DNA from: Plantibacter flavus
Lineage (GTDB): Bacteria > Actinomycetota > Actinomycetes > Actinomycetales > Microbacteriaceae
Assembly: GCF_900177615.1 (NCBI RefSeq)
Contig: NZ_FXAP01000007.1
Location: 109,886 to 173,885 of the forward strand
Length of the DNA stretch: 64,000 nt
Direction of reading: 5' to 3'
Position 1 is the stretch's first letter. Each line of letters begins with the position of its first letter. The notes below the pieces were generated by a model that was given only the letters and a program-made list of their open reading frames with translations, was not told where the DNA came from and made no database searches. The position numbers were made by a program, and so were the translations under genes. Below, piece after piece: positions 12,101 to 58,478 of the stretch.

Positions 12101-12141
12101 CCCGTGGGTTGCCGATCTGGCCGACCCCGAAATGAGACCAG

Positions 12142-12540: not shown

Positions 12541-12646
12541 GCCACGCATCGCAGACGGCGACGGCTGGTCACGTGGCCAAACCCCCATATCGACGCACCC
12601 GCGGTACAACACCCTCAACCCAGATGCCGAACGAAGGACACCGATC

Positions 12647-14260: not shown

Positions 14261-14351
14261 AGACCGTCGTTGAACTAGCGGGTGGCGCTTCGTGACGGCC
14301 GTTCGTGACTTCGGAGCTCAACGCAATGCAAGCCTCTGGAGAATCGCCGTC

Positions 14352-14803: not shown

Positions 14804-14818
14804 CCAACTAGGTCACTG
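14798..14818. promoter_or_regulatory. Inverted repeat, possible operator
   Basis: CAGTGACC aacta GGTCACTG, 8-bp perfect arms with a 5-base spacer, sits in a 130-base gap before the gene at 14934. No hairpin-plus-U pattern is present, so protein binding is more likely than termination. Confidence 0.35.
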
Positions 14819-14933
14819 ACGCGCGCCAACCCCGGCGTGCCACATCCCTCAGCCCGACGCTTCGGCGGAGGGCTCATTGGCGCGCCCGAAAACGGGTGCC
14901 GCCGTCTCACCCCCACCGAAACCAGGAGGCAGC

Positions 14934-15422: not shown

Positions 15423-15435
15423 CCCGACCGAGAAC

Positions 15436-15461
15436 GGGCGCCGCAGAGATCTGCGGCGCCC
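15436..15461 (+). terminator. GC-rich hairpin
   Basis: Arms of 11 bp (gggcgccgcag / ctgcggcgccc) with a 4-base loop, 14 bases after the preceding stop. It marks the end of the 10.8-15.4 kb small-gene unit. Confidence 0.65.
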
Positions 15462-15763
15462 ACCACTGCGTGAGCATCAGAGGTCATGCGCTCTGGCCCT
15501 GGCGGGGGGGGCCAGAGCGGCCGCGCAGCGCGCAGCCGGGGGATCTTGCGACGGCCGGACCAGGGGCGTATGCCCTGCCCGGCACGACGCCGAACGAAGA
15601 GCCCTTCGTCTGCAGCGGCGTCCGTCGGCGTCCCGAAAATCTGAAACCCAGAACCCCTGTTCGTCGATGCCTTCGGTGTCCGACGAGCCGAAACCCAACT
15701 GTCGCAACGAGGGCATCGCCCGACGTCGCTCAGCCACTCGATCCAAGACAAGGAATCCCGCTC
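15462..15763. other. Gene-free structured region upstream of the MoxR-like gene
   Basis: About 300 bases with no convincing gene. An open frame crosses it in the MoxR frame, but the residues are compositionally odd (Arg/Pro/Cys-rich). It has no ribosome site until CAAGGAAT before 15764. Two further inverted repeats are visible. One is at 15490-15518 (gctctggccc / gggccagagc, around a run of 8 G). The other is at 15586-15622 (gacgccg / cggcgtc, enclosing cgaag / cttcg). It may hold a long 5' leader with RNA structure or the promoter of the MoxR-VWA unit. Confidence 0.45.
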
Positions 15764-16996: not shown

Positions 16997-17010
16997 TCCG
17001 CCATTCACGA

Positions 17011-41620: not shown

Positions 41621-41965
41621 CTAGTAGCCCATCTCGCGATCCGGTGACGACGCGGGTGCGTCGTTCTCGAAGAACCGGGTCCGTGTTTCGGTGAGCTCGA
41701 CGCGCTCCTTGCGCCCATCACGCTCGGCGCGACGCTGGGCGTTGGCCTCGCCGGTCATCTGTGCGTTGATGGAGCGCTCGGCCATACCGATCATCGGAGC
41801 TGCAGACTGGGATGCCAGCCCCTTCGCCGTCAGACCGTTCCGTGCGCCTTCCATCTGCTCGTCAGATGCCGCCTTCATCTTGTTCCACCGTTCCCGGTCT
41901 TCGTTTGTCACGAAACCGAACATCGACGTTACCTCTGCCTCGCTGGGAAGCCCCGTAATGTCCAT
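41621..41965 (-). CDS. Hypothetical protein, 114 aa
   Basis: Not recognised. It is highly polar and helical (NEDRERWNKMKAASDEQMEG; AERSINAQMTGEANAQRRAE), probably disordered or coiled. AGGAAGGGG before the ATG fixes the start. It is bounded by hairpins or spacers and probably has its own transcript. A degenerate copy of the regulon motif lies just upstream (41986-42000). Confidence 0.55.
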   Translation of the reverse strand: MDITGLPSEAEVTSMFGFVTNEDRERWNKMKAASDEQMEGARNGLTAKGLASQSAAPMIGMAERSINAQMTGEANAQRRAERDGRKERVELTETRTRFFENDAPASSPDREMGY

Positions 41966-42064: not shown

Positions 42065-44248
42065 TCACCCCAGGTTGAAGTCCACATCCTGAAGAGGTGT
42101 AGCGTCATCCCTACCCAAGCCGGTGAAGCCGCCGGTCTCCACCTCGTTGTAGTGCTGGTTTACGAGCGCACGACGGACTCTCGACGCGGTGCCTGTCAGG
42201 GCGACCGTTTGGTCGTATGCGGCGGCTGAGGAGACCTTCCCTGCCCCTCCTGTGATGGCCTCCTGCGCTTGCTGCTGCGCCGAAGCTGAACCGGCAACGT
42301 CCAGTTCGCGGCCAGCCGCCCGCTCTGGCGCCGACGTGATCGCGCGCCGGTTGGCACCCGCTCCAAGCTGTCCGATGTCCCCCACCAACTCGCCGTCGAT
42401 GATGCCGTCAACCGGGAGAGCGTCCTCCACGTCGCCGGCGTACACCATCTCCTCCACCGCCCCTCGAGTTCGTGCCCGTTCGGGCGAGGGGTCCTGCCTC
42501 GTGCCCGCCGCACCTGCCGGACGAGCGCTCGGCCGCCGCGGGGCTCCGCTCGTCGACGGACCTGGCGATCGCGGGGTGGCGCGCGCTGCTTGCGGAGCTC
42601 CGTTCGTGCCGGATCCGCTGGCCGCTTGTGCGCCGAGGTCGTTGTACCGACGGATCGCTTCGGCAACGTCCTCGCGCCAGTTCTCCCCGTACTGAGCGGC
42701 CCATTGAGCACCCATCTCGGGGTTCAATCGATGAGTGGTCTCAACGGCGTCCACGTACGCGGCCGTGTACGCGAAACGCTGCTCCTCACCCGACAGGCCA
42801 TCGTCCGACATCGACGCGAACATCGTTCGCGCCTTCGAGAAGCGCGTGCGCGTGGCCGGGTCCTCGAGCTGGTCGACGACGTCAGGGTACTTTGACGCCG
42901 ACGACGCCACGACGTACTGGGAAAGGGCGTCATTCAGCTCGCCGACGGAGGTCGCTGTGGCCATCTCGGCCGCGAGCGTCTCTGCGATGAGCACCCGGTG
43001 TTCGCTGATGCTCGCGGGCGGCCGAAGACGGAACGACCCCGACGAAATAGTCCGCCCCTCGTAGGAGTCGACGAAGTCACCAGTCCACACGGTCGCGCGC
43101 TCGACACCTCCTTCGAGGAACACCTCCCTGGGCTCGCTCTTGGCGAATCGACCGTGACCGAGCTCGCTGAAGACACTCGCGAGCTGCGGCTCTCGTGCCA
43201 CCCGCTGACCGACGATCACGCGCATCGAACGGGACACGTCCTCGCGGCGGATCCCGTCGTCGTCGACGTACTCGTAGAGGGCTGAAAGTGCCGAGTCGTA
43301 GCGGTCACGCACGGACGATGGATCCACGCCCGGTCGACGCATGTCGGCGTAGGCGGCTTCGGCCAGGGCAACCTCGGTCATGGCTGCGCTCTCGGCCGTG
43401 AACGGTAGGCGGTGGCCACGTTCGGCGAAGGCGATCTTGTCCAGGCGACGTTGCCACTTCGACGACAGCTGGTCGGCACGACCCTTGCTCGCGAGCTTGT
43501 CCAGCTTGCCGAGCGCCTTCCCGTCCTTCTTGTCACCCCTGTTGGCGATGCGCTCACGAATTACGTCGCCCATCTGATCGGCGAAGGACCCGAGCTGGGT
43601 GCGGAAGTTGGGCGAGAGCATCCACATCGACGCACCCATACCGAGGACCGATGCCACCGTCTGTGTGCTGATGCCCTGCTGGAGCGGTTGGACGCACTGG
43701 AGCACCATCATGGACGCGTATACCTGATGCATACCGCTCAGCTGCTTACGCTGCGTCTGCTTGGTCTCAGCAACACCCAGGATGCCCGACTGCACGAGGC
43801 TCGCCATGTACTGCTCGCCGGCGCGCGCGGTGTCGAGCTTCAGTCGTGTGAGCGGATCAGCGCGGGCCTCTCGTTCGAGCTTCGCGCGGTCAGCGCGGGC
43901 CTGCTTCTCCTCGGCAGCCTGTGCCCTGGTCGCCTGGTGCTGTTCGTCGCGACGGGCCCGCCCATCCTGTCGCTCACGCACGCGTTCGCCTGAACGGCCG
44001 GCTGCATCACGGACGGCGTCTGCCGGTTGGGTGAAGAGCGTGTCCCGCACTCCGTTGTCGCGAATACTGCGTGCCGCGCGAGTGGCCGAACGGGCGCCCT
44101 GAGAGAAGCTCGTTCGCACGCGGTCACCGAGTGCTGGGCTCGGCTCGATTACTTCCGCATCGAGAACATCGTCACCGTGAGAAGCGCCTTCCGGCGCCAC
44201 TTCGGCATCGTAGATCGGGATGTTCAACTTGCGACTCTGGTCTGCCAT
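42065..44248 (-). CDS. Large unknown protein, 727 aa
   Basis: Not recognised. The first 110 residues are low-complexity and basic. Residues 95-150 are a charged helix (RRDEQHQATRAQAAEEKQAR). Residues 185-225 hold a moderately hydrophobic region (QVYASMMVLQCVQPLQQGIS, TVASVLGMGASMWML), possibly membrane-associated or buried. The middle is helical (residues 250-520), and the C-terminal 200 residues are Pro/Ala/Ser-rich with an acidic patch. GGAGG lies seven bases before the ATG at 44248, so this start is preferred to the ATG two codons upstream. It carries the regulon motif 52 bases upstream and directly follows the RNA polymerase gene on the same strand. A structural or scaffold role in transfer is possible. 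Confidence 0.6.
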   Translation of the reverse strand: MADQSRKLNIPIYDAEVAPEGASHGDDVLDAEVIEPSPALGDRVRTSFSQGARSATRAARSIRDNGVRDTLFTQPADAVRDAAGRSGERVRERQDGRARRDEQHQATRAQAAEEKQARADRAKLEREARADPLTRLKLDTARAGEQYMASLVQSGILGVAETKQTQRKQLSGMHQVYASMMVLQCVQPLQQGISTQTVASVLGMGASMWMLSPNFRTQLGSFADQMGDVIRERIANRGDKKDGKALGKLDKLASKGRADQLSSKWQRRLDKIAFAERGHRLPFTAESAAMTEVALAEAAYADMRRPGVDPSSVRDRYDSALSALYEYVDDDGIRREDVSRSMRVIVGQRVAREPQLASVFSELGHGRFAKSEPREVFLEGGVERATVWTGDFVDSYEGRTISSGSFRLRPPASISEHRVLIAETLAAEMATATSVGELNDALSQYVVASSASKYPDVVDQLEDPATRTRFSKARTMFASMSDDGLSGEEQRFAYTAAYVDAVETTHRLNPEMGAQWAAQYGENWREDVAEAIRRYNDLGAQAASGSGTNGAPQAARATPRSPGPSTSGAPRRPSARPAGAAGTRQDPSPERARTRGAVEEMVYAGDVEDALPVDGIIDGELVGDIGQLGAGANRRAITSAPERAAGRELDVAGSASAQQQAQEAITGGAGKVSSAAAYDQTVALTGTASRVRRALVNQHYNEVETGGFTGLGRDDATPLQDVDFNLG

Positions 44249-44299
44249 CAGCATGCCTCCATACGCCTCAGTCGACGCCGTGCCGACGTTCGCAGTTTA

Positions 44300-44392: not shown

Positions 44393-47300
44393 CTACGGCT
44401 GGAAGTCCTCCACCAACTCGGAGGAGGTGTCCGCAGCTGCGGCCGTGAAGACCGGGCGAGCCCGCGGGGCACGAACCGTCGTCGCCACCGGTGATCGGCG
44501 CCCTTCGCCTCGTGCACGAGCGCGAGCGTCATGGGCCGACAGCACGTCGCGGTTGACGAGCAGCTTCACGTCAGGTGCTTCGACTTCGAGACCCGCCTCG
44601 GTCGCCTTCTCCCAATCGGAGATCGCCCGCTGGTTGCTCCGGACGGCGTACGGTGCGAAGTGACCGTTCTCCGATCCGGAGAAGATGTTCTCTCGCGCCG
44701 TGGCCGCGGCCAGGACATCATCGAAGGTGCCACCGTAGGCCAGGCGGTCCATGGTCGAACCGAGGCCCTCCAGGCTCTTGTCCTCGGGGTCCTCGATGTC
44801 AACGATCAGGCCAGTCGGTCCGGTGAGGGCCGCCGCGACCTTGTCCACGTTGCCAGTGTTGACCGACACGTTGAGACCATCCTTCGCCGTGTACAGGTCC
44901 AGGAACTGGGCCTTCCACGTCTCCGTGTCCGCCTGGAGCTCCTGTCCGTTGTCGTCGCGCGCCACCATCCACTCACGGTTGCCATCCGCGCCCGGCGACA
45001 CCTCCAGCTTGCGGCCCTTCCACAGTGCCCGAGCCGGGCCCATCAGCATGTTGTACTTCTGCCGGGCCTCCTCGGGGTCGTGCTTCGCCTGCAGCACGGA
45101 CTGGGTCACCGGGTACGTGAGCTCGAGCACCGCCTTCAGGTCGCCGTTGCGGAGTGCCTTCACACCGCGCTGGGAGAAGGTCCCTGCGATACCGGTTCCG
45201 TGCGACTTCACCGCCGTCGCCATCATCACGCCTTCGTCCTCAGCGCGTGTGTGCTGCGTGTCGCCGAGATCGACCATCGTGACTGGGTCGACGCCCAGGT
45301 GTCGGCAGTAGTCGCCGATCTTGCTCATCGAACCCTTGGCGCCAGTATCGATGCACGCCTCGATCACGCTCTTCACGTGGTCGCCGGCCTCGCCGAAGCG
45401 CAGGATCGCGTCACCGTACTGGCCCTGCATCGCTTCCCGGTAGTAGTCAGACAGGTTGCCGACGAGTTCGTGTCGGTGCTCCCATGCTGTCGCCTGGTCA
45501 ATGCTGCCCTCCTCAAGGTCACTCTGGACCTCGTTGGCCCGCATCTTCAAGTCCGCGAACTGCTGAGCGAGCTCTGGTGCCACGAACTGACTCACCTTCA
45601 CGTCCAAGGAGTCCTGCATCGCCAGCGGGTGCAGCATGTCGTCACCGAACTGTCCGAGGTCGAGGAGATTGGCCTCCACGGTCAGCTTCTGCATCGCCTG
45701 GGCTCGCGCAGCGTCGCTGGTCAACCGCACCACGGCGACCGAATCTCCGTCGAAGTCTCCGTCGAAGCACTTGTCCATGACCGGGTTGATGGCCACACCG
45801 GTGAGGCGCTCGTCAACGCGCACCCGCAGGTAGCGCACGCCGGCGTCACGAAGCACCGGGTCACGCCAGACGAGCGCGTAGTCGTTGTCCTCCAACCCGA
45901 GAGCCTCGGCCATGGCCGGCCCAACAGCGAGCTGGTCGACATCCAGACGAGGGTCGCTCGTCCAGACTGCCGTGGCCGAGTTGGGGAGGCGGGAAGACAT
46001 CAGCCCCTCCTTGAACACGTTGCGCTTCCCAGAGAAACGCTTGTGCTTGAGATCGTCCGTGATCGTGTCGAACGCGGCCTGTGCACGCCGCGGAGCCTCC
46101 GCGACCTGCGCCTCGAGCGCGTTACGGCGATCGGGAGTGAGCGCTTCGCCGTTGCGGGTGAGCTCGTCCTTGGCGAAGCGGTACCGGGTCGCCATCTCGT
46201 ACACGGCCAGGTACTGGTTCGTGTAGTCGTGCGCCGTGCTCTGCCCGTCGTCGAGATCCTGACCACTGCGGAGGTGCGAGCTCATCACCGGCAGCTTCCA
46301 CGTGGTGTCCGTGGCCGTGGGAATCCGCTCACCTGTCGGGAAACGGAGTGGGAAGGGCAGCTCCAGGTCGCCACCGCGATCACCGATCAACTGACCGAAG
46401 TCAGCCTTCATCTTGCCGGCGTTCAGCGTCCCCCGAGCGGTGATCTCCAACTCAGGCATCGGGAACAGCCGACGCTCGGAACCCTCTGCCATGTCGTCGT
46501 AGCCGACGCGCATCGTGCCGTCCGGTTCCATGTCGAGGCCCATCGTCACGAGCATCTCGCGGAAGTTGGCCACCGCCGAGTTGTTGGGTCCGTAGAACTC
46601 ACTCATCACCTGGTCGCATCCCTGGGACCCCAGAGCCCACGCGAGCTGACTCGACGCCTTGCGGCCACGCCCCTCCCGCAGTGCAGCCTCGTCGTAGACG
46701 CGGGTGCCGCGTTCGACGTCCTTGTGGGTCACGACGAGGCGCATCTTGCCCATCGTGTCCTTCGTCGTCCCCTTCCACGGGAGCGCCAAATCGCCAGGCT
46801 CCTGCATGAGTTCACGGGCAGTACCCCCGTTGAACCGCGAGACGGCGGAGAAGGGGCTCATGACTACGTCCAGCTCGGGGTTCATCTTGAAGACCTGGAC
46901 GGCGTAGTTCATGTTCTGATCGGTTGCGTCGAAGTCCTCCCCCGCGACTGCGTCGCGATCGACGACAAGCGAGATGACGCCCTTGTTACCGTGCATGTCG
47001 CTGAGCTTGTCGCCCGGGACCAACGAACGAGCGGAGCCGTCGGCGCCACGGATCGCGTGCTTCTCAGCGAAGTCCTTGCTGACGACCATCGGGTCATCAG
47101 CGGTCCATCCGCCGAAGGTCATCATCGCCACTCCAACAGGCTCGGTCACGGCGGCCGCGTTCAAGAGGTTCGAGGCCGACATCTGCTGACGGTCGTACGG
47201 GTCGAACTTCATCATCTCGGTCTCCGGCAGCTTCATGAGCGGCGCGCGGTCGTCGAGGTCTGTGCTTTGGATGATCTTCCCTGTCGAGGCGTCGACCGTT

Positions 47301-49975
47301 GCACCCTCGACCAGGTACCGGGTGATGCCCTGGTAGACAGCGCCGTTGGTCATCACTGGGTCGAAGAATCCGTCGCCCTCTTCGGTCATGATCGCCATGT
47401 TGCGACCACCGGTCAGGACCCACGCGTCGAAGCGGTTGTCGTTGGCCGGGTCCGCCGCCTGCGCGGAGTTCTCTGCGCGCCACGCAGCGTGCACAGTTGA
47501 GCCAGATGCGATCTCGCTCGGGTAGCGGACTCGACGCGCCTCCGTGGCGAGTATCGCGTTCACCCACTGCTCGTCGAGACCTTCCGCCGCTGAACGCTCG
47601 ATGAAGTCGGCTTCGTGGCGCACGTCGTAGAGACGGCGGTAGACGCTGTTCAGCGAGGTGGGCTCCCCGACCTCGGTGCGCATGACGAGCATGTCATTGG
47701 CGATCTGGTACTCGATCTGATCGGTCATCGTCTGCTCGTAGCCGCGGAGCAGCGTCCGCTCTTCGACGCTCAGTTCCTCGCCAGCCCGCTGTGAAGAGAT
47801 GCGCGCTTCGTAGCCGGGGACGAACAGGTAGTTGTCGCCGCCGGCGAACCGCGTCACGACCTCTCCGTGCTCACCACGACCGAACAACTGACCGATCTGG
47901 CCCTGGACCACCTCGCGGGCGCCCGTGCGACCGAATCGTTCGGCTGTCCACGAGGCGATGCCCTGGTCGTCGATCTCCAGGCTCGTCACGTGGCCACCGT
48001 TGCGCTCGATGGCTAGACCGATCACCGCACCCATGGCGCTGACGAAGGGATCCGGGTGCATGTTCGGCTCGACGGAGGCATCCCGGTTGAACTGGACCAG
48101 GCGGTCCTTGACAGCGGTGGCGTAGAAACTGGACCCCATCAGCTCGTCGCCGGTGATGCCCGTGACACGCAGCGCTGCGACGATGTTCGCGTTGTTGCGC
48201 CAGGTCCCGAACTCGCTCGTCATGTGCTTCGCGACTCGGACCGGGTCGAAGCGTCGGGTGACGATCTCTCCATCGAGGAGAACGTGATCGTGTTGCTCGA
48301 AGGATCCGATGAGCTCGTCGACGACATCGGCCGCGTGATCGCGTACCTTCTGTTCGCCCGAGCCGACGTAGGCCAGGTCGCCCACGAGCAGGTCGTGGAT
48401 GGCACGTGACTCGTCCGAATCGACCTGGAGCTCGCCGATGACACCGACCTTGGCCTGGTACTCCTCCTCGGTTGCGCCGGAGCGAAGCAGCGTCGTCTGC
48501 GCCCCTCGAAGAACATCCCAGTACGAGCGCTGAATGGCTGACACCTCAGCATCGCCACTGAACTCAGGGAACCACTCACCGGCGGCCGCTGCCTCGGCGT
48601 GCTCCTCGTGCTCGCGCACCAGACGGTCGACCTCAAGCGACGCGGCGAGGTTCTCACGTGCACTGGTGACTGACTCCAGCAGGTACTCCTCGCCGCGCTC
48701 TGCATCGGCGAAGAAACGCGCCGTTGCTGTCCGTGCACTGGCCGAACGCCGAACGAGCACCTTCGCACCGGGCTCGGGGATCTTGCCGTCGACGAGCAAG
48801 TCGCCCACGACGGACATCGACGCTCGGTCGTTCTTCGTGAAGTATGCGTCCTGAACCTCGACCGGAACGCGACGCCCCTGCTGGCGGCTCCACTCGACCT
48901 CCGTGTGGACGCCGACCTCACCGACCAACCCCTTGCCGTCGAAGCGCTCCACGGGCTTACCCTGCGCGACCCGCAGCAATGCGACCGCTTCGGATGCCGA
49001 CGGAGTGTAGGGCAGCGTCTTCTGGGACCCGTCTGCCTTCACGTTCGTCGAGTAGTAGGTTGAGACGCCATCGTCGTAGACGCGGCCGACGAAGTGCTCG
49101 TTCTCACGCAGCTCCGTGAGCCGCACCGAGATCTTGGTCCCCTCGATCTCGGCCTTGATCTGACCGGGGTTCCGATCGCGACTGACGGTGTACCCGACTC
49201 CCTGGGCGCGGAGTTCGTCAAGGATTGCAGCTGAGCGGCCGAGCGCATCGGCCGTCATGAATCGTCGGGGGTTCAGCGACCCGTCCTGGTTGCGTGCGCC
49301 TTCGATGACCCAGCTGCGTACATGGCGGTACTCCTGCTCGCTCATCCGGGACATCAGCTCGGTGATGCCGCTGGCGTCGTCGTGGCTGTAGGCCTCCCCC
49401 GCTTCGACGGGCTTCCCGTCCTCACCCAGGGAGTAGATGCGCAGCTGGTCCGTCCGCAGCTCTCCGAGACGGCTCACATCCCCTCCTGCGAACTGCTCGA
49501 TCTCGTTGTCGAGGAGGTACCGAGGCTGCGACCCCGCCTGCTTCATCGTGCTCCGGACGGCCCATCGCTGGTCGTAGGGCGAGACGGGCAGTCGCGCTCC
49601 GGCGACGCCGGTGTTCGGTTGCACGACTGTCACGCCGTCCGCGCCCTTGCGGGTGAACCCTGCGATATCGAAGAATGCGTCCTTCATCTGCACGTAGGCA
49701 GGAGACGCGGGGCTCGTGTCGGCGAAGATGCCGGGGTAGCCCCGAACGTTCTCCTGCATCGTCTCCTCGATGGCCCGGAGGACCGGCGGGATGCCGAGGT
49801 CTCCATCCGCGATCGAGCGACCCTCAGCTGCGAGCCGCTGCTCGACCTTCGATCGCAGGTCTCGAGCGGCGGAGACCATGATGACCTTCCCCGTCGCGTC
49901 CTGTGTGCGCTCGATCGTCTGCTGGAACAGGTGCTCGTACAGGTATCGGCGCATCCCCGGGCTTCGTGGATCCAT
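44393..49975 (-). CDS. Single-chain multisubunit-type RNA polymerase (fused beta/beta-prime core)
   Basis: 1860 aa. A beta-type half is visible first: GWTADDPMVVSKDF (956-969) matches the beta 'GYN.EDA.VIS' block. VPGDKLSDMHGNKGV (986-1000) has the two active-site lysines (K990, K998), and MSPFSAVSRFNGG (1039-1051) follows. The beta-prime half comes next: GKRNVFKEGLMSSRLPNS (1316-1333), then GVAINPVMDKCFDGDFDGDS (1393-1412), whose DFDGD (D1407, D1409, D1411) is the Mg-binding triad. LAMQDSLDVK (1451-1460) and a bridge-helix-like SVIEACIDTGAKGSMSKIGD (1536-1555) follow, with trigger-loop-like sequence near 1580-1630. The 850-residue N-terminus is unrecognised. No alpha, omega or sigma homologue is present. 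AAGGGGGAAC precedes the ATG. Known single-chain relatives include SP-beta YonO; from memory, a divergent one lies in a Corynebacterium prophage. It presumably transcribes element genes. Confidence 0.9.
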   Translation of the reverse strand: MDPRSPGMRRYLYEHLFQQTIERTQDATGKVIMVSAARDLRSKVEQRLAAEGRSIADGDLGIPPVLRAIEETMQENVRGYPGIFADTSPASPAYVQMKDAFFDIAGFTRKGADGVTVVQPNTGVAGARLPVSPYDQRWAVRSTMKQAGSQPRYLLDNEIEQFAGGDVSRLGELRTDQLRIYSLGEDGKPVEAGEAYSHDDASGITELMSRMSEQEYRHVRSWVIEGARNQDGSLNPRRFMTADALGRSAAILDELRAQGVGYTVSRDRNPGQIKAEIEGTKISVRLTELRENEHFVGRVYDDGVSTYYSTNVKADGSQKTLPYTPSASEAVALLRVAQGKPVERFDGKGLVGEVGVHTEVEWSRQQGRRVPVEVQDAYFTKNDRASMSVVGDLLVDGKIPEPGAKVLVRRSASARTATARFFADAERGEEYLLESVTSARENLAASLEVDRLVREHEEHAEAAAAGEWFPEFSGDAEVSAIQRSYWDVLRGAQTTLLRSGATEEEYQAKVGVIGELQVDSDESRAIHDLLVGDLAYVGSGEQKVRDHAADVVDELIGSFEQHDHVLLDGEIVTRRFDPVRVAKHMTSEFGTWRNNANIVAALRVTGITGDELMGSSFYATAVKDRLVQFNRDASVEPNMHPDPFVSAMGAVIGLAIERNGGHVTSLEIDDQGIASWTAERFGRTGAREVVQGQIGQLFGRGEHGEVVTRFAGGDNYLFVPGYEARISSQRAGEELSVEERTLLRGYEQTMTDQIEYQIANDMLVMRTEVGEPTSLNSVYRRLYDVRHEADFIERSAAEGLDEQWVNAILATEARRVRYPSEIASGSTVHAAWRAENSAQAADPANDNRFDAWVLTGGRNMAIMTEEGDGFFDPVMTNGAVYQGITRYLVEGATVDASTGKIIQSTDLDDRAPLMKLPETEMMKFDPYDRQQMSASNLLNAAAVTEPVGVAMMTFGGWTADDPMVVSKDFAEKHAIRGADGSARSLVPGDKLSDMHGNKGVISLVVDRDAVAGEDFDATDQNMNYAVQVFKMNPELDVVMSPFSAVSRFNGGTARELMQEPGDLALPWKGTTKDTMGKMRLVVTHKDVERGTRVYDEAALREGRGRKASSQLAWALGSQGCDQVMSEFYGPNNSAVANFREMLVTMGLDMEPDGTMRVGYDDMAEGSERRLFPMPELEITARGTLNAGKMKADFGQLIGDRGGDLELPFPLRFPTGERIPTATDTTWKLPVMSSHLRSGQDLDDGQSTAHDYTNQYLAVYEMATRYRFAKDELTRNGEALTPDRRNALEAQVAEAPRRAQAAFDTITDDLKHKRFSGKRNVFKEGLMSSRLPNSATAVWTSDPRLDVDQLAVGPAMAEALGLEDNDYALVWRDPVLRDAGVRYLRVRVDERLTGVAINPVMDKCFDGDFDGDSVAVVRLTSDAARAQAMQKLTVEANLLDLGQFGDDMLHPLAMQDSLDVKVSQFVAPELAQQFADLKMRANEVQSDLEEGSIDQATAWEHRHELVGNLSDYYREAMQGQYGDAILRFGEAGDHVKSVIEACIDTGAKGSMSKIGDYCRHLGVDPVTMVDLGDTQHTRAEDEGVMMATAVKSHGTGIAGTFSQRGVKALRNGDLKAVLELTYPVTQSVLQAKHDPEEARQKYNMLMGPARALWKGRKLEVSPGADGNREWMVARDDNGQELQADTETWKAQFLDLYTAKDGLNVSVNTGNVDKVAAALTGPTGLIVDIEDPEDKSLEGLGSTMDRLAYGGTFDDVLAAATARENIFSGSENGHFAPYAVRSNQRAISDWEKATEAGLEVEAPDVKLLVNRDVLSAHDARARARGEGRRSPVATTVRAPRARPVFTAAAADTSSELVEDFQP

Positions 49976-50043: not shown

Positions 50044-50065
50044 TCGGTTTTGGCTGGTAAATCAG
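50044..50065 (-). promoter_or_regulatory. Regulon motif upstream of the RNA polymerase gene
   Basis: The - strand reads CTGATTTACCAG, then CCAAAACCGA and a TATAGT hexamer, 69-90 bases before the polymerase start. The palindrome plus AAAAC box fits the shared motif. The polymerase gene thus shares its upstream signal with the coupling protein and AAA+ genes. TATAGT could be a host-type -10 element. Confidence 0.65.
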
Positions 50066-50071: not shown

Positions 50072-53000
50072 CTAAACGTCTCGATCGCGCATTGCGAGCA
50101 TCATGGCGCGCTCGAACTCGCCGCCGGCGACCGAGCTCCAGCCGTCCAGCGAAGCCAGGAACTCGTAGAACTCCGGTGTCACCTGGTAGCCGACCAGGCT
50201 CTGCAGATCGTCCTCGCTGTACACCCGCGCACCCGGGTCCTTGGCGGCCGCATTCAGCTGGCGCAGTGACTCGGACTCATCGAGCTTGTCGATGTACAAG
50301 GTCTGACCGTCGGCCGATCGGAGAGAACCCCCGCTACCTACGCTGAAGTGCGCGAAGTCCCGCTCCATGTAGGAGCGCGTCGCCTTGTACGCCTCGGCGA
50401 TCTCACGGTCGAGTGGGCCGTCGAGCGCGCGACCGTCGGCCCGGACGAGCATCTCCCGGCTGATCTGTCCACCAGCGAACAGCAGGGCTTGCCTAACGGC
50501 GGCGTCGGCTTGTGCCGCCTGAGCAGCAGCCTTCATCTCGAGATCTGCCTCCCAGTCACCGTTCGCGTAGAAGCCCTCGGGGGCATCGTCCAGGTCGACC
50601 TCCTCCGCGTCCAGTCCCGTCTCCTCTGCCACACTCTCGCGGAGCGATGCGTCAACGAGTTCCATGACCTCGTCGCTGTACACGTCAGGATCGAGCCGGG
50701 CGATGTCGACGTCCTTGTAGTCGTAGGCCTCCTGGTAGATGACCTTGCAGCCCACGGCGTTCTCCGCCTGCAGCATGCGCTTGGCGAGCATCTTGTCGAA
50801 GTCCGGCTGGTTCAGCCGCACATCGAAGTCCAGGGCCGAGCTGAGTGTCGGGATGGTCTGCAGCGTGTACTCGTGGCCCGGGTGGACGATGGTGTCCTTG
50901 AACAGACGCCATGACATCGGCAGGATCGTTTCGTTTCGGTTCCACACGGGTGAGTCGCCGGCGCGGAACACGATGCTGTTGCGTTCGGAGATATACGCCA
51001 TGTCGTTGTAGCTGATGACCGGCTCCTCCTTCGTGTTCATCGTGTAGGAGACCTTGCCCTCAACGTTGAGCCCCTTGATCATCCGCTCGGTGTCCTTGGT
51101 CACCGTCTTCGAATCGCGGTACGTCCGGTGCGTGGTGCCCGACATCTTCTGCAGAGTGTCGAGCATCGAGTCGTCGGTGCTCTTCAGGAAGACGATGTTG
51201 GAGGTGTTGCCCTGGACGATCTTGTCGACCGACTCGCCGTAGACGTCGCGAAGCTGCTGCAGCGTCTGCAGGATGATCGTGAACTGCTGCTCCTGGCCGA
51301 GGCCGATCGAGAGCATCGTTTCGAAGCCGGAGATTCCGTGACCCTCGGACTGAAGGTTGCCGAGCTCGTCGAGCATGAACCGGGTCTTGTAGAGCGGCTT
51401 CTGATTGCTCTTGGTCATGTACGACTTGTCGAAGTTGAGGTCGACGAGCTGCTTCACGAGGATCAGGATGAGCTTCGCGTACTTCATCAGGTGCGGCGGC
51501 GTCACGAGGAACACGACCTTCGGCTTCTCCGAATAGCGAACCATGTTGGAGATGATCGCCTGCGCCTCACCAAGCTCCTTCTCCGGCAGACCCGCGGTGA
51601 TGTTCGTCAGACGCATCTGTGGGTAGGTCGTGTGAGCCGGAACGAACTTGCCGGACGCCTCGTCGCGCCGCAGTTCCACGAGCAGACCGTTCTTCACGAT
51701 CTTCTCGCTGGTGACGGGGTCGGTGATGAAGTACCGACCGTTGAGGGAGGTCTGGTAGTCCTTCGTGAATCGGAAGTGGAACGTGCGGATGAGCATGCCG
51801 GTCTGAGCGTTCACGAGCCGAAGACGGAGGTATGCGACGTCGGTGGCGAACTTGCCCTGGAAGTAGTAGCGCGCCCATCCCTCGCGCGACACGATGTCCT
51901 CGTGTTCGAAGTCGGCGCCGAGGTTGGTCTCGAAGCCGGCGTCCGCGAACGCATCCCACTTCACCTGCGCCCCGATGAGGTGGTCGCGCTTGAGGTAGTT
52001 CATCCCGAACCGGACACCCATCCGCCGAGGGAAGGACAGTCCCCCGAGATCCACGTTCTGGGACGGTGCGCCGGAAGTCAGCGTCGAGATCGTCGGGTCC
52101 GTGAAGAAGGACATGGCGGTGATCGCGATCCCGTAGACCGACGCGAGCATCTTCTCCGCGGCACCCATGGCGCGCAGGGCGTTGTCGGCGTTGCTCACGA
52201 GGGTGCGCATCGAGTTCTGCGGTAGCCCACCGGTCGCGTTGAAGAAGAGCGTCAGCATGTCCAACTCGTCCTTGTCCTCCCAGAGGAACGCCTTCCGCAG
52301 AGCGACCTCGCGCTCCGCCTCGTACTCGTCCTCCTGGAAGTCGTCGCCCTGCGGGTCTCCGAACTCGCCTCGCTTCGCCCGCGCTTCCAGCAGCTTCAGG
52401 GGGTTCTTCATCTTCTTGGCGGTTAGCTGAACGAAGAGCTGGTAGCAGTTGTAGAGCGTCACCGTCCCCCACATCTCGTCGAGCCGGCGGTCGAGGATCT
52501 TCGGGTCCATATTGGTTCGTGAGGCGAAGGCGCGAAGTTCACGCTCCTCCTCGAGGTAGTAGTCGATGAGGCCGTAGGCGGCTCGCTTGAAGGCGTTGTT
52601 CGCGGCGTTCGGCCACACGGGGTCCTCGCCGCCGTCCATGGGGAAGAACACGTCGGCGATGTTCTCGACGTACAGCGCGCACTTGGTGGCGTCACCCTCG
52701 CGAGCGGCGTCGGCTGCCATCCCCAGTGGGTTGTAGATGTCGGTCTTCATCGCGTTGATCAGGTTGAACTGCACGACCTGGAAGCCACGCATCGTCGCCG
52801 CCACGTAGTTCTTGACGAGCAGCTCACCCTTGGGGTCGTTGATCACCATGTTGTTGGGCCGCTTCTCCCGCAGCCACATGTCGATGACCGGCTCGATGTA
52901 GGTCTGCCCCTTGCCACCGCGGGTGATGGCGAGCACCATGGTGTTCACCGGCGCGGTGTCGACCAGGTACGCGCCTCCGGGGCGCTGCACCTCGTACTCA

Positions 53001-54079
53001 GGCATCGTCCAATCGCTGTTGATCAGGTCCGCGACCGTCTTGAACTTGCCGAGCTTGTCGCGGTCCGATCCGTCCGCGTTGTACGGGATGACACTCGTGT
53101 CGTAGGTCTTCCGAAGCGTCTTCCCCTCCGGGATCCCCGAGGCGTCGAAGAGTGCGTCGCCGAAAGCCTCGTCGATCATCGGCATCGATCGGGTGATGGC
53201 GGCCTCGTTCTCATCCCGGAGGATCTCACCCTTGAGGTATTCGACGTCGCCGTCGTCGTCGAGAAGATCCTTGTCAGCTCGGACAGCCAGGTCGACCTTC
53301 CGGAGCCCTTTGTTGGTGATCATCACGTGGCTGATCATCGAGCTGAGCTGGACGCTCGAGTGCGCGCCGGCGTCGGGGAACCAGTCGAACTTCCGCATGA
53401 CCTCGTTCGGCAGGGCGATGTGCTGGTCACCTTGGTACTGGTTGATGTCCTGGGTGTCATTCATGAGGTTCTGAGCGTCGAGGTTGCGCATCAGGATTGG
53501 GTGCAGGATCCCAAAGGTGAGCAGCCCCGCGAGAGCTGAGACGAGGAGTTTCCAGATGTCGAACGTCAGCAGCTGTCCCGGGAAGTCGGAAGCCGGCGCC
53601 ATCACGACTTTGGCGCCGCCGTCGACCCCGTCCGGTTCGCTGGCGGCCGCTTGCATCGTGGTCCACCACTCCGGCGGATTCTCGATGGCCTCCTCCTCGG
53701 TCTTGTAACAGGGCTGATCGAGCATCGCCTCACCGTTGGCGTCGGTGATCTGGTAGCAGTGGAAGACCGTTGAGCCGTTGACCTGCGCGATCTTGTAGTA
53801 GGCCGGTGTTCCGCTGATCCCGCCGCTGTTGAAGATCGGTCCGGCGACAACGATGAGCAAGGCCACGGCTGAGAACACACCCCACGTCAGCACGGCGACG
53901 ACTCCCGCCACGATGAGGGACACCGTGGTGCGACTCGTCCTGGTCTGTAGACCGTCGATGTTCGACCGGTCCAGTTGCTGGTCCTCGAACACGTCACGGT
54001 TGCGGAGGGTCTGTTCCGCGGTGCGGCCCGAGAGCTTCTCCCAGTTGGATGCCTTCGGGTGAGTCGACTTCTTAGCCAC
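50072..54079 (-). CDS. TraG/VirD4-like type IV coupling protein
   Basis: 1335 aa, a conjugation ATPase. Two membrane helices near the start (about 52-80 and 172-194) bracket an external loop with a Cys pair. The P-loop is ITRGGKGQT (385-393), a coupling-protein variant. NNMVINDPKGELL (409-421) is the Walker B-like block of VirD4/TraG ('DPKGEL'), and RFMLDELGNLQSEGHG (D904, E905) is the second conserved acidic motif. LGQEQQFTIILQTLQQLRDV follows, as in the family. These proteins hand relaxase-DNA to the secretion channel. The C-terminal 190 residues are acidic and extra. The start is a GTG without a clear Shine-Dalgarno site, only 19 bases from the regulon motif. No terminator separates it from the polymerase gene downstream, so both may share a transcript. 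Confidence 0.88.
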   Translation of the reverse strand: MAKKSTHPKASNWEKLSGRTAEQTLRNRDVFEDQQLDRSNIDGLQTRTSRTTVSLIVAGVVAVLTWGVFSAVALLIVVAGPIFNSGGISGTPAYYKIAQVNGSTVFHCYQITDANGEAMLDQPCYKTEEEAIENPPEWWTTMQAAASEPDGVDGGAKVVMAPASDFPGQLLTFDIWKLLVSALAGLLTFGILHPILMRNLDAQNLMNDTQDINQYQGDQHIALPNEVMRKFDWFPDAGAHSSVQLSSMISHVMITNKGLRKVDLAVRADKDLLDDDGDVEYLKGEILRDENEAAITRSMPMIDEAFGDALFDASGIPEGKTLRKTYDTSVIPYNADGSDRDKLGKFKTVADLINSDWTMPEYEVQRPGGAYLVDTAPVNTMVLAITRGGKGQTYIEPVIDMWLREKRPNNMVINDPKGELLVKNYVAATMRGFQVVQFNLINAMKTDIYNPLGMAADAAREGDATKCALYVENIADVFFPMDGGEDPVWPNAANNAFKRAAYGLIDYYLEEERELRAFASRTNMDPKILDRRLDEMWGTVTLYNCYQLFVQLTAKKMKNPLKLLEARAKRGEFGDPQGDDFQEDEYEAEREVALRKAFLWEDKDELDMLTLFFNATGGLPQNSMRTLVSNADNALRAMGAAEKMLASVYGIAITAMSFFTDPTISTLTSGAPSQNVDLGGLSFPRRMGVRFGMNYLKRDHLIGAQVKWDAFADAGFETNLGADFEHEDIVSREGWARYYFQGKFATDVAYLRLRLVNAQTGMLIRTFHFRFTKDYQTSLNGRYFITDPVTSEKIVKNGLLVELRRDEASGKFVPAHTTYPQMRLTNITAGLPEKELGEAQAIISNMVRYSEKPKVVFLVTPPHLMKYAKLILILVKQLVDLNFDKSYMTKSNQKPLYKTRFMLDELGNLQSEGHGISGFETMLSIGLGQEQQFTIILQTLQQLRDVYGESVDKIVQGNTSNIVFLKSTDDSMLDTLQKMSGTTHRTYRDSKTVTKDTERMIKGLNVEGKVSYTMNTKEEPVISYNDMAYISERNSIVFRAGDSPVWNRNETILPMSWRLFKDTIVHPGHEYTLQTIPTLSSALDFDVRLNQPDFDKMLAKRMLQAENAVGCKVIYQEAYDYKDVDIARLDPDVYSDEVMELVDASLRESVAEETGLDAEEVDLDDAPEGFYANGDWEADLEMKAAAQAAQADAAVRQALLFAGGQISREMLVRADGRALDGPLDREIAEAYKATRSYMERDFAHFSVGSGGSLRSADGQTLYIDKLDESESLRQLNAAAKDPGARVYSEDDLQSLVGYQVTPEFYEFLASLDGWSSVAGGEFERAMMLAMRDRDV

Positions 54080-54239: not shown

Positions 54240-56528
54240 TCAGAGCAACTTGACGGCCGAAACCACGGCCGGGGCGCTCTGTGAGATTGTGGGAGCCTGC
54301 GACGCGCCCCAGGACCATCCGAGGATGACACCCACGGCGAGAGCTGCGATGCCGAGCACGATGACAAGCGTGATCAGGGTGCTGTTGAACCGCTTCTGGT
54401 TCGCAGCCGCACGCTCGAGCTCCTGTGCGGCAGACAGCTTGTCAGCCTCGAGCGTCGTGATCTTGCCGGCGTACTGAGCCTCGTACTGCGCCCCCAGCGC
54501 GGAGAGCTGCGCGGTCAACTGTTCGGCCACGGCGCTGCTCGAACGGGTGCGCTCCTTCTCCAGCGTGATGGCCCCACCCCATTCGGCTTCTCGAGCGGTG
54601 AGCTGGGCGACAGCCTCCTGTCGGACCCGCGTGAGTTCCTCGTTCAGGCGACGCTCGAAGTCCTCTCGCTCGCTACGCATCTCGTTGAGCCTGGCCGTGT
54701 GCTCCTCGCGAAGCTGTGCCACAGACCGGTCACGGCTCAGCTCCTGGGCGAGTGCCATCGCGCGGGCGATGTCTGCTTGACGGTTCTCGTCGATGAACGC
54801 GATGAGGCGGTTGTTCCACCGCTCCAGAAGCTCTCGTTCGCCCTCGCGGAGGACATCCTGGCGCTCCCGCAGAACCTCGAAGATCTGAGTCGTACCGACG
54901 TCCATGTGGACGTTGGCCTCCTTGCGCCGCATCTCCAGGACCGTCTGGCGGTCGTGCTCGTAGCGCTCCTCGAGGCGTCGATCGACCTCGAGTCCGGCCT
55001 CGGCGAGGTCGCGCTCCAGCTTCGGCCGATTCTTGTCCTCGTAGACGCTGCGTGCGTGCGCCGCCGCAGCTTCTGCACGGCTGTCTGCTGCCGCATTGAA
55101 ACGCTCGGTGATCTCACGCCGCTGGTTGGAGATCTCCTGCGGGCCTGCGAGGCGAGCCGCGTCGTAGTCCTTCTTCGCCCCGTCCATCAGGTTGGCGAAC
55201 TGCGAGCCGGGGATCTCGGGCGACACCAGCGTCATCGTCTTCTCGACGTGCATGCTCATCGTGGCAACGAACAGCTCGCGGAGCTGGTCGGCGTTGGCCT
55301 GGTGCACCTGCTGCAGCTCAGCGTTGGCCTGCCGACTCAGCTGGGCCACCTGAGAGCCGAGCCAGTCGGTGGGGTCGTTCGTGATCTCCAGGGTGATCGC
55401 GGCCGCGGATGTCGTGAATGTGCGCTCGAACTCCGCGAGGTCGACGACGAGGTCGAGGTCACTACTGAGGAAGCGACGAGCAATGGTGTCCCGCACCTCG
55501 TCCTCGTCGACGACGCGATCGCGGTTCTGCTCGAGGTACTGGAAGTAGCCGGCAGCCTCTTCGTTTCCGGACGGCTGTTCCGTGCTCGCCGTCAGAGCGG
55601 GTCCGTCAACGATTCCTGTCTCCAGGTCGACGTTCCAGGACGCGTCGAGATCGTCGTTCTCATCCGTCGACGAGAACCCCACGCCCTCGGTCTCGAACTG
55701 CGCCTCGAACGGCTCGAAGTCGTGCGAGTCGTCACCCGAGCTGGCGTCGTCAGCCGCAAGAGCGGAGTAGTCGACCTCGTCATCGCCGCCGCCGAAGGTC
55801 TCTCCCCCGCTCAGGGCGAACACATCCCCCAGAGGGTCGTCCGCCAGCGTCGACGTTGCCGAGCTGGCGGACGGCGTTGATGCGCCGACGAGCGCGAGCT
55901 CCGCCTCAGCAGGGACGACGGAGGTCAGCTCAGGCTCGACGTTGCCGCCGCCCCAAGCCCACACCTCGGGGAGCACAGCCGCGAGGCTGGTCTCACCACG
56001 AGAGAGCTGTACTGCCTCGGCATATGAGGCCGACGTGTCCTGAATGGCGTCCGCGGCCAGTTCGCCGCCGGAGGTGTGGAAGACCGCCCAGAAGTACCGG
56101 GCATCCGTGAGCAGGCGGTACTCGCTCATGCGGTCGAGGGTGTCGACCGTCGGCACGATGCCCAGGAACTCGTCATCGAGCATGGCCTTCGTCGCGACGA
56201 CCTGGATCTTGTCAGCAGCGATGAGTTCGATGATCGAACCCTTGGTGGCGTCGTTCTTCTGCTTCATGCTGAGTCCGCCGATGGCGTCAGCCGACAACAG
56301 CAGACCCACCCACGCGGTGCCGTTGGGGAGCGCGAACGCGTCGTTCCCCTTCAGGAGGTCGATCGCCGCGCCCGGGGCGCTCTCGTTCACGACGCTCGAG
56401 AGGAGCTCCGCTGGCTTGCGCTTCTTCTGCTTCTGCTGGGTGGATGCCGACGCGTTGCGCGCACCGTCTGCAGTGTCGATCGACGCCTCAGCGGTCGACC
56501 CCTTGCTCTTGTTACGACCGAATGCCAT
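54240..56528 (-). CDS. Large coiled-coil protein with C-terminal membrane anchor, 762 aa
   Basis: Family not recognised. A short basic start is followed by an alpha/beta domain (about 35-180), an acidic low-complexity linker (200-310) and a long coiled coil (about 440-700). The coiled coil includes ERYEHDRQTVLEMRRKEANV, REGERELLERWNNRLIAFID and RLNEMRSEREDFERRLNEEL. One membrane helix lies near 725-750 (STLITLVIVLGIAALAVGVI), leaving a short external tail. The start is chosen at 56528 because GGGAGAGGA precedes it; upstream in-frame codons cross the regulon motif. It lies between the coupling-protein and AAA+ genes. A role in anchoring or organising the transfer complex at the membrane is plausible from context. 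Confidence 0.65.
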   Translation of the reverse strand: MAFGRNKSKGSTAEASIDTADGARNASASTQQKQKKRKPAELLSSVVNESAPGAAIDLLKGNDAFALPNGTAWVGLLLSADAIGGLSMKQKNDATKGSIIELIAADKIQVVATKAMLDDEFLGIVPTVDTLDRMSEYRLLTDARYFWAVFHTSGGELAADAIQDTSASYAEAVQLSRGETSLAAVLPEVWAWGGGNVEPELTSVVPAEAELALVGASTPSASSATSTLADDPLGDVFALSGGETFGGGDDEVDYSALAADDASSGDDSHDFEPFEAQFETEGVGFSSTDENDDLDASWNVDLETGIVDGPALTASTEQPSGNEEAAGYFQYLEQNRDRVVDEDEVRDTIARRFLSSDLDLVVDLAEFERTFTTSAAAITLEITNDPTDWLGSQVAQLSRQANAELQQVHQANADQLRELFVATMSMHVEKTMTLVSPEIPGSQFANLMDGAKKDYDAARLAGPQEISNQRREITERFNAAADSRAEAAAAHARSVYEDKNRPKLERDLAEAGLEVDRRLEERYEHDRQTVLEMRRKEANVHMDVGTTQIFEVLRERQDVLREGERELLERWNNRLIAFIDENRQADIARAMALAQELSRDRSVAQLREEHTARLNEMRSEREDFERRLNEELTRVRQEAVAQLTAREAEWGGAITLEKERTRSSSAVAEQLTAQLSALGAQYEAQYAGKITTLEADKLSAAQELERAAANQKRFNSTLITLVIVLGIAALAVGVILGWSWGASQAPTISQSAPAVVSAVKLL

Positions 56529-56551
56529 TGGTCTGTTCCTCTCCCTGATCT

Positions 56552-56580
56552 CCTGGTTTACCAGCATACATGAATGTTTT
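56552..56580 (-). promoter_or_regulatory. Regulon motif upstream of the coiled-coil gene
   Basis: The - strand has AAAACATTCATGTATG, then CTGGTAAACCAG, ending 24 bases before the start. Over 28 bases it matches the site at 59706-59733 at 25 positions. CTGGTAAACCAG is a perfect palindrome apart from its central AA/TT step. Confidence 0.75.
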
Positions 56581-56614
56581 GAGGGGTATCCTGGTCGGTT
56601 TTTCATCGACTGAT

Positions 56615-58387
56615 TCAGCTACTCGGCGGCAGTGCCACCATCACTCGTGCATCGCTCTTCAGGAGCGTCTTCTCCGCGCTCTTCAGCACGCCGTCGATGT
56701 AAACGGAGACGGATCGCTGGCGCGGGTGCTTGTTGATGAACTCCGCTACCCCCGTAGCCACCTCGTCGGTGAGGCGCGCGATCGCGGCTCGTGCACCGCC
56801 GGCGTCGGAGTCGGTGTCCGACTTGTCCTCCACGAGATACTCGATCACGTCGGGGTGGATGAGCACCTTGGTGTTGTGCTTCGTCAACACCTCCTGCACG
56901 AATGCACGCAGCTTCGACGTCACGATCGTGCGCTGGGTGTCTCGTGAAAGGGGTTGGAACGGGACGATCGCATCCAGGCGGCCGAGCAGCTCAGGGGGGA
57001 AGCGATTCTCCCCCTGCGTGCTCGTGATCGAGCGCCGGATCTCTTTCATCTTGTCCTTGAGCTCGGCGCCGGATCCGGTGTCATCGACGTTGTACTGGGC
57101 GATGGTCTTGAAGATCTCCGAACCGGCGTTCGTCGTCAGCACGATGTAGGTGTTCAGGAACGAAACTTGCCGTCCGTTCGCGTCGGAGAGGCGGCCGTCA
57201 TCGAGCACTTGGAGCAGCATGCGGGTGACCAGCGGTGACGCCTTCTCGATCTCGTCCAACAACAGGACCGCGTGTCCCACGTGCCAGACCCGACTCGTCA
57301 GCTCTTTGCGAAAGAGGTCGAGGGATTCGTCTCTGGCGTACTCCGACATGTCGAATCGGATGAGGTGTTCGCGGGCGTCGCCGAACATCAGCTGGGCGAG
57401 CTGTTTCGTGAGCTCGGACTTCCCCACACCAGTCGAGCCGGCGAAGAGGAATGAGGAGGCAGGCTTCGTCTTGTCCTGCAGGTCTGCGACGCACAGCTGG
57501 AGTCGACGGGCGACGGTCGACGTCGCCCAGTCCTGGCTGAACACCTTCGTGTCCAGATCGGCCTTGATCTTGGCCGCGTCAATGCGGAAGGCGACGTTGA
57601 CGCCGACAGACTCCATGAGCACGTCCGCGAGGAGCTGCCGGTCCAGCGGCCGCGCCTGGAACTTGTACCAGCCGACCATGGCGTCAAGGACCAGGATCGA
57701 CTTGCGAGGCTGAGAGGCGGCAGGGACGTAACGCTCGGTGTATTCGTGGATGAGCTCGAAGATGTGGTCGTCGTAGAACTGGTCGGCGACGTCGTATCGC
57801 GCAGCCATACCCTTCATGATTGCCACCGTCGTCGCGCGATCCGGCGGATTCACGATGATGCGCTGCAAACGCTCGACTAGCGGCTGGTTCGGCTTGATGT
57901 ACTCGTCGAACTCATCGTTCGTCGTCGCCGCGATCACGCGGATACCGCGGGCACCTGATGCGGCCAGCACCGGCTTCAGCGCTTCGACCGCGGCACGACT
58001 CAGCTGCACGAGTTGGTGGAACTCATCGATGAAGAGCACCAGCTCGCGCTCCTCCTCAGCGCAGTATCGCTCGGCCTCGTCGAAGAGCGACTTGATCTGT
58101 CCCGCCATCTCATCGGCGTTGTCGACTCGAGCGATCATTCGTGCCAGATCGACCTCGCGGTAGCTGCGGTTGATGTCCTGGAGCATCGCTGCTTGAACGA
58201 GCGCCGTCTTGCCGGACCCCGGAGGGGCGAGCAGAAGAGCGTTGCACAACTCTGGACGGCTCATAGCTGCCATCAGCTGTGCGATCTCGTAGTCTCGCCC
58301 GATGATCTCCCGCTCGGCCGGCAAGAGTGCCGTGCTGAACTCGGCCAAGGTCCTGTAGCGCTCGTTGAGCGTGGTCTCCGTGAACAT
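56615..58387 (-). CDS. ClpA/ClpB-like double AAA+ ATPase (right-arm copy)
   Basis: 590 aa. AAA+ 1: Walker A LLAPPGSGKTAL (52-63), Walker B LVLFIDEFHQL and sensor 1 IAATTND. AAA+ 2: Walker A LFAGSTGVGKSEL, Walker B AVLLLDEIEKA, sensor 1 LTTNAG and arginine finger PPELLGRLDAIVPF. The C-terminal D2-small domain carries LIHPDVIEYLVEDK and GARAAIARLTDE. There is no Clp N-domain and no obvious ClpP-docking tripeptide. It differs strongly from the copy at 18.9 kb, so this is not a recent duplicate. The start at 58387 is chosen because the longer frame runs back through the regulon motif. It is probably a chaperone-like remodeller in the transfer module. Confidence 0.85.
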   Translation of the reverse strand: MFTETTLNERYRTLAEFSTALLPAEREIIGRDYEIAQLMAAMSRPELCNALLLAPPGSGKTALVQAAMLQDINRSYREVDLARMIARVDNADEMAGQIKSLFDEAERYCAEEERELVLFIDEFHQLVQLSRAAVEALKPVLAASGARGIRVIAATTNDEFDEYIKPNQPLVERLQRIIVNPPDRATTVAIMKGMAARYDVADQFYDDHIFELIHEYTERYVPAASQPRKSILVLDAMVGWYKFQARPLDRQLLADVLMESVGVNVAFRIDAAKIKADLDTKVFSQDWATSTVARRLQLCVADLQDKTKPASSFLFAGSTGVGKSELTKQLAQLMFGDAREHLIRFDMSEYARDESLDLFRKELTSRVWHVGHAVLLLDEIEKASPLVTRMLLQVLDDGRLSDANGRQVSFLNTYIVLTTNAGSEIFKTIAQYNVDDTGSGAELKDKMKEIRRSITSTQGENRFPPELLGRLDAIVPFQPLSRDTQRTIVTSKLRAFVQEVLTKHNTKVLIHPDVIEYLVEDKSDTDSDAGGARAAIARLTDEVATGVAEFINKHPRQRSVSVYIDGVLKSAEKTLLKSDARVMVALPPSS

Positions 58388-58422
58388 TCGGCCTGCCTCT
58401 TCAGTTGGGAGCCCCGAAGCGC

Positions 58423-58443
58423 TCGTTTTAGCTGATAAACCAG
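58423..58443 (-). promoter_or_regulatory. Regulon motif upstream of the right-arm AAA+ gene
   Basis: The - strand reads CTGGTTTATCAG, then CTAAAACGA, 36-56 bases before the start. Both palindrome and AAAACGA box are present, as at the polymerase and coupling-protein genes. Confidence 0.7.
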
Positions 58444-58478
58444 GCAAAGCGTACCACGCGGTCTCGGCGTGGCAAGAG

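Follow-up and report, generated by a model that had tools for sequence, protein, structure and literature searches.

A single-chain RNA polymerase homologue in the conjugation module of a large circular Plantibacter flavus plasmid, and its possible role as a transferred protein

The 64,000-nucleotide stretch of Plantibacter flavus DNA analyzed here (the window) contains an 1860-residue reading frame that resembles the two large subunits of cellular RNA polymerase joined in one chain, which raises the question of what such an enzyme does for the element that carries it. The original prediction held that both catalytic barrels lie in this one frame and that, with this enzyme, the element can be transcribed without relying on the host. 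The frame runs on the minus strand from 49975 to 44393, and the same stretch contains stop codons when read in plus-strand frame 1. A 989-aa open frame antisense to the gene (window 44531-47500, plus strand) is likely a by-product of codon usage, because the DNA is 65% GC. The features discussed below are collected in Table 1.

The protein is a single-chain RNA polymerase homologue (hereafter RNAP) with both catalytic signatures, and the first half of the prediction was borne out by Pfam, by profiles, and by invariant residues. The Pfam families RNA_pol_Rpb1_2 (PF00623, E 3.4e-6) and RNA_pol_Rpb2_6 (PF00562, E 5.9e-6) were both matched above their curated cut-offs, and each was present in 20 of 20 diverse aligned members of the family. 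When the query was aligned with 92 relatives (93 sequences in all, with identities as low as about 24%), K990, K998, and the D1407/D1409/D1411 triad were found at the predicted positions and were invariant, as were the residues G, D, K, D, G, N, and K of the beta-type motif GDKLSDMHGNKGV. Using hhalign, this motif paired with GDKLAGRHGNKGV of the host RpoB, and FDGDFDGDS paired with NADFDGDQ of the host RpoC. The comparison with RpoB and RpoC that accompanied the prediction as a proposed check gave E values of 6.8e-8 for the beta segment against host RpoB and 4.9e-10 for the beta-prime segment against RpoC; the crossed pairs (beta segment with RpoC, beta-prime segment with RpoB) gave no alignment, with E values of 0.4 or more. 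Further blocks begin at residues 1040 (SPFSAVSRFN), 1316 (GKRNVFK), and 1370 (WRDPVLRD). A profile built from 20 sequences of the family matched largest-subunit chains of RNA polymerases in the PDB at E 1.8e-15, the predicted core structure resembled beta'-type subunits, and the best single PDB sequence match was 8h2n (E 2.1e-5). From these signatures, we infer that RNAP makes RNA. The N-terminal 600 residues or so, predicted to be folded, had no PDB match and no convincing match was found for them, which does not imply a new fold.

At E<=1e-3, 692 homologues were found among 7992 scored candidates. The closest named relative among the matches listed was from Cryobacterium zhongshanensis (89%), and no Corynebacterium name appeared among the homologue matches listed. 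Two homologue clusters, P0079 and P0082, comprise 614 and 571 member sequences, and these sizes suggest that some elements carrying the family are very abundant in the sampled metagenomes.

Table 1. Features of the window discussed in the text, with positions counted from its first nucleotide.
Feature	Position	Strand	Evidence or remark
Single-chain two-barrel RNA polymerase (RNAP) homologue, 1860 aa	44393..49975	-	ATG start; Pfam, alignment, and profile matches
Beta-type active-site motif GDKLSDMHGNKGV, residues 988-1000 (GDK...HGNKGV)	46976..47014	-	Holds K990 and K998
Beta-prime-type active-site motif FDGDFDGDS, residues 1404-1412	45740..45766	-	Holds D1407, D1409, and D1411
N-terminal region of RNAP, about residues 1-600	48176..49975	-	Predicted folded
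C-terminal tip of RNAP, last 12 residues (...TSSELVEDFQP); candidate export signal	44396..44431	-	Inferred from tail counts
Shared palindromic motif, core of the site preceding the RNAP gene	50054..50065	-	Motif search
Further motif sites (starts)	44300, 54107, 56553, 58432, 59707, 63718
VirD4/TraG-type coupling protein (T4CP), 1335 aa, directly upstream of RNAP	50072..54079	-	PF02534 E 3.6e-21; TraG-D_C E 1.4e-12
Coiled protein, hydrophobic C-terminus	54240..56606	-	No Pfam match; orthologues at the same place in related loci
Clp-like double AAA ATPase, conserved upstream neighbor	56615..58447	-	AAA_2 E 2.2e-36
MobL relaxase	59744..61963	-	PF18555 E 2.4e-75
Downstream gene, 729 aa, ends DVDFNLG; candidate co-cargo	42065..44254	-	No Pfam match; tail
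Small gene, 114 aa, ends REMGY; candidate co-cargo	41621..41965	-	Tail; no NCBIfam match

The window is the end of contig C6 (173,885 bp) in a genome of 4.30 Mb and 11 contigs. Because its two ends overlap exactly over 95 bp, C6 most likely represents a circular molecule of about 173.8 kb. We identify the element as a conjugative plasmid, not a phage, with RNAP encoded in its conjugation module. C6 also encodes a topoisomerase, a lysozyme-domain protein, T2SSE-type secretion ATPases, and an integrase-family protein. Other genes observed on C6 include T2SSF/T2SSE secretion or pilus genes (C6 48412-52378), a 1607-aa protein with antigen I/II-type surface domains (70871-75694, minus strand), and a DNA polymerase III alpha subunit (C6 26768-30559, minus strand); a phage-type DNA polymerase (PHROG E 1.3e-21) lies at window 909-4136 on the plus strand. 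When nine otherwise unassigned proteins of C6 and the window were scanned against PHROG, the sole matches were to a DNA polymerase and an HNH endonuclease. A phage origin was considered and rejected, as none of 50,697 phage records contained a match to the RNAP family and the element carries MobL and a T4CP. A viral collection, scanned with two peptide patterns only, yielded a sole locus (L057), in which pieces of a T4CP lie upstream of RNAP.

Among 72,556 plasmid records, 13 matched the RNAP family, including staphylococcal plasmids of only 55-65 kb. RNAP was found in 1 of 60 related genomes, the window's own, and a T4CP of this type in 2 of the 394 genomes surveyed from the class, one of them again the window's own (too few for statistics); these counts indicate an accessory element. 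Another extrachromosomal RNA polymerase was observed in Clostridioides difficile, in 12 plasmid records of 96-150 kb (H47-H58): in 11 an RNA polymerase beta subunit gene is annotated, and the twelfth has a match that is not annotated, detected over 56 residues at 50.9% identity with the staphylococcal RNAP.

The genes around RNAP point to transfer. Fifty loci were compared (6 annotated plasmids, 43 genome contigs, and 1 from the viral collection), of which 3 had no usable upstream sequence by the rule of the script. A T4CP lies upstream of RNAP on the same strand in 41 of the remaining 47, a figure that is not a count of independent events because many loci are close relatives. No called gene separates the two in 39 of these 41 loci, and two genes do so in two staphylococcal loci. 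No T4CP of this type was found upstream in six loci (L011, L045, L047, L049, L050, and L051), the last three of which have less than 4 kb of upstream sequence. The order ATPase, coiled gene, T4CP, RNAP, downstream gene is conserved in most actinobacterial loci, an orthologue of the downstream gene following RNAP in most of them, and the RNAP gene co-occurs with MobL and the Clp-like ATPase. In the search of the 72,556 plasmid records, all 12 with this T4CP (E<=1e-30) also have RNAP; the thirteenth RNAP record, Lactococcus pJM4A, lacks this T4CP, and about 32 kb separate the two genes on Lactococcus pJM1A, where they lie on opposite strands. RNAP and T4CP distances were correlated across 40 loci (r=0.91), a value reached in none of 2000 label shuffles. 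RNAP is thus encoded together with a relaxase and a T4CP, as a cargo of a conjugative type IV secretion system would be. In one locus, L046 of Arthrobacter sp. Hiyo8 (9986-15585), RNAP, T4CP, and other module genes are split into several frames, through either decay or an assembly error.

One related module lacks the gene. In genome G127 (locus L068, G127:C11:1-18000), positions 5079-17001 encode the T4CP, ATPase, coiled, downstream, small, and HU-like genes, and no RNAP was found in this module, including between the T4CP and the downstream gene; RNAP is therefore dispensable or was lost there. The absence of RNAP from a module that is otherwise apparently kept would fit the view that the polymerase fold has been retained for a role in transfer other than RNA synthesis, for example as a structural or nucleic-acid-binding part, and two thirds of the protein do lie outside the neighborhood of the two catalytic motifs. 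Such a role is nevertheless very improbable given that all catalytic residues are invariant in relatives as distant as those aligned here.

The upstream regions of the module bear on whether RNAP acts in the cell that produces it. A 30-bp imperfect palindrome, about TCGTTTTTC-CTSRTWWACSAG-GAAAAACGA, precedes many genes of C6. With up to two mismatches, the 4.3-Mb genome contains 20 matches at 18 places, all on C6; at three mismatches, 9 of 16 matches fall outside C6, and a backward-read control gave 6 in all. Scored with a motif model trained on its own sites, C6 had 51 strand-hits above 15 against none on reversed C6, and 25 sites exceeded a score of 20; by our reading of the table of sites, 13 of these fall in the transfer region. 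Scores above 15 were reached in 29 of 51 related loci compared with 10 of 51 reversed ones, AT-rich loci being high in both. Sites of the motif also precede the coiled gene in loci L016, L018, and L039, from Streptomyces, Arthrobacter, and Brevibacterium, and the T4CP gene of G127. In the window, the sites at 58432 and 56553 fall inside the long frames of the ATPase and the coiled protein, so that the true ATPase start is probably downstream of its motif and the coiled-gene start of the long frame is probably too far upstream.

Several transfer genes, RNAP included, each have their own motif site, and this layout, with the confinement of the closest matches to C6 and the concentration of high-scoring sites in the transfer region, would suit a dedicated transcriptase that stays in the donor and reads plasmid genes, above all those for transfer, from element-specific promoters, as YonO does for the late genes of SPbeta. 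The accessible part of the YonO study (PMC5467207) describes initiation at one late operon, and the catalytic core of RNAP also fits a donor-side role. The motif was itself first favored as a promoter read by RNAP for its one-gene-one-motif layout and was later demoted, being a near-palindrome that is also present in G127, where RNAP is missing. By eye, TANNNT boxes overlap the left arm of the motif at many sites, GC-rich hairpins follow several transfer genes in the intergenic gaps, and the staphylococcal gaps contain a different palindrome beside TATAAT. In our reading, the TANNNT boxes would suit a host sigma factor, and the motif would be an operator at host-type promoters, in which case RNAP is probably not the enzyme that expresses the transfer genes. 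We therefore consider a donor-side transcriptase unlikely. The same observations weakened the predicted independence from host transcription, which the placement of RNAP in a conjugation module and its presence on staphylococcal plasmids of such small size also failed to support.

The C-terminus of RNAP also bears on its role. After a variable linker, the tips of the family are constant in character (VDDFQL, DDGFEL, SDGFEYGL, and DDYGMGY; GFELEM in one staphylococcal relative). The pattern [FY][EQ][LMYF] occurs near the end of 43 of 173 family proteins, which are not independent of one another, compared with a mean of 0.1% (maximum 1.2%) at 152 upstream pseudo-termini; two looser patterns likewise matched the true ends more often than any pseudo-terminus (40 of 173, with a pseudo-terminus mean of 3.3%, and 85 of 173, with a mean of 7.0%). 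Because the patterns were chosen after the tails had been inspected, these counts describe the tails and do not constitute a test. Net charge in the family is -3.3 over the last 15 residues and +3.2 over residues -60 to -20. Similar tails were found on the products of the next two genes (downstream and small) in several loci, the window's own among them. By gene class, an F/Y-type tail is present on RNAP in 27 of 52 cases and on the downstream gene in 24 of 36, and is rare or absent on the T4CP (1 of 47), the ATPase (0 of 36), and the coiled gene (0 of 34), with 55 of 667 among other genes. None of the 11 called MobL proteins (10 actinobacterial, 1 staphylococcal) has it. In the module of G127, the small gene ends in DDDPEFG and the downstream gene in SSPEFEG; the tip therefore does not need RNAP.

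On staphylococcal plasmids, the relaxase and RNAP end alike in three pairs (KDIELEL and KGFELEM, EYEIEL and SGFDLEM, KDIELDI and KDVEMEMS, relaxase first), and in the S. aureus record the relaxase ends in HVIEL and RNAP in KIDLQYGQ, which does not match the pattern. Among 315 called genes in eight partly overlapping staphylococcal and lactococcal stretches, a hydrophobic-acidic-hydrophobic end was found on 4 of 4 relaxases, 3 of 4 staphylococcal RNAPs, the lactococcal RNAP, and 7 further genes; two of the relaxases are annotated as mobL and two were assigned by place and length, one of these with a 22% match to the MobL of the window. We propose that the tip is read by the T4CP as an export signal. 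The tail evidence is equally compatible with any shared partner, and RNAP could instead dock to the T4CP without export and serve the donor relaxosome. Short RNAs that it made there, at the origin of transfer or along the strand being displaced, would then open the DNA or prime replacement synthesis. The position of its gene beside the T4CP and the presence of a topoisomerase and a relaxase in the same module agree with such a function. However, the tails resemble those on the relaxases of four staphylococcal plasmids, and the relaxase crosses to the recipient with the DNA, while fixed parts of the machine lack them; a priming or opening factor confined to the donor thus appears rather improbable.

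We tentatively favor the reading that RNAP is a protein cargo of the plasmid's type IV secretion channel and that, once in the recipient, it would work on the DNA that arrives there, because it is fixed in the transfer module, had no match in the phage records searched, occurs on small staphylococcal plasmids, and has a terminal tip resembling those of some relaxases. Plasmid genes need to be switched on in the recipient before its defenses act; the answers known for such early expression include single-strand promoters read by host RNA polymerase, and transferred primases and other proteins. RNAP, once its tip was recognized by the T4CP, would cross together with the relaxase-bound single strand. 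In the recipient, it would either begin the transcription of leading-region genes or supply RNA primers for second-strand synthesis, at a stage when the host polymerase could not yet use the incoming DNA; the N-terminal region may hold template or promoter recognition. Its mode of action would resemble that of the polymerases that phage N4, crAss-like phages, and P23-45 inject, and that of the transferred primases of RP4 and R64. With some doubt, we extend this to a class of plasmids, from Actinomycetota to Bacillota, that may inject their own RNA polymerase during mating, the T4CP picking up an acidic-hydrophobic C-terminal tip that RNAP has in common with the relaxase or with two co-cargo proteins, so that the entering strand would be transcribed before the recipient's polymerase could do so. 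Several observations count against transfer of RNAP, namely the MobL proteins without an F/Y-type tail, the S. aureus RNAP end that does not match, the RNAP-less module of G127, the distance between RNAP and T4CP on pJM1A, and the six loci without an upstream T4CP. If the proposal is correct, bringing a polymerase along with the DNA would add to the known solutions for early expression, the tip would give a little-studied Gram-positive transfer system a concrete candidate for its export signal, and a "hypothetical protein" with 692 detected homologues would become a testable component of transfer.

The class of polymerase has already been named in print: by description rather than by sequence, RNAP is like the "NCgl1702-like" enzymes, single-chain two-barrel RNA polymerases of mobile elements that were grouped with YonO and RNA-dependent RNA polymerases and lack the beta flap insert. 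The published passage on them makes no mention of conjugation or export, unlike the reading proposed here. The linkage of RNAP to T4CP and MobL, its tail, and the idea of delivery were not found in searches of the open-licence literature, which was covered mostly at the level of titles and the beginnings of abstracts, and the term "RNA polymerase" is absent from the text of PMC5313138 on MobL relaxases. YonO of SPbeta is also a single-chain enzyme distantly homologous to the multisubunit ones, according to the available portion of its report (PMC5467207), but by description it is about half the size of the plasmid RNAP, is prophage-borne, and serves late genes in the producing cell. Early transcription of single-stranded plasmid DNA entering the recipient is the problem that Frpo single-strand promoters solve, as summarized in PMC11541004; there, host RNA polymerase and DNA secondary structure are used, whereas a polymerase brought by the plasmid is proposed here. 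Protein transfer has precedents, since proteins cross along with the F-type plasmid pED208 (PMC8406263, as excerpted), and the conjugally transferred primases of RP4 and R64, together with N4 RNA polymerase, are discussed in the accessible sections of PMC5512222, where N4-like polymerases are described as found only in phages or prophages. Those primases are likewise nucleic-acid polymerases of conjugative plasmids, but their fold is unrelated and their transfer was demonstrated, whereas that of RNAP is proposed from its gene context and tip. The best single PDB sequence match, 8h2n, comes from work on the virion RNA polymerase of phage P23-45, which the available text (PMC10770324) describes as fused to the tape measure protein and transcribing pre-early genes. 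That polymerase shares the two-barrel fold with the plasmid RNAP and is delivered through a phage tail, in contrast to the type IV secretion channel proposed here. If our reading holds, conjugation would be tied to the virion RNA polymerases, and RNAP would be the plasmid counterpart of those that some viruses inject.
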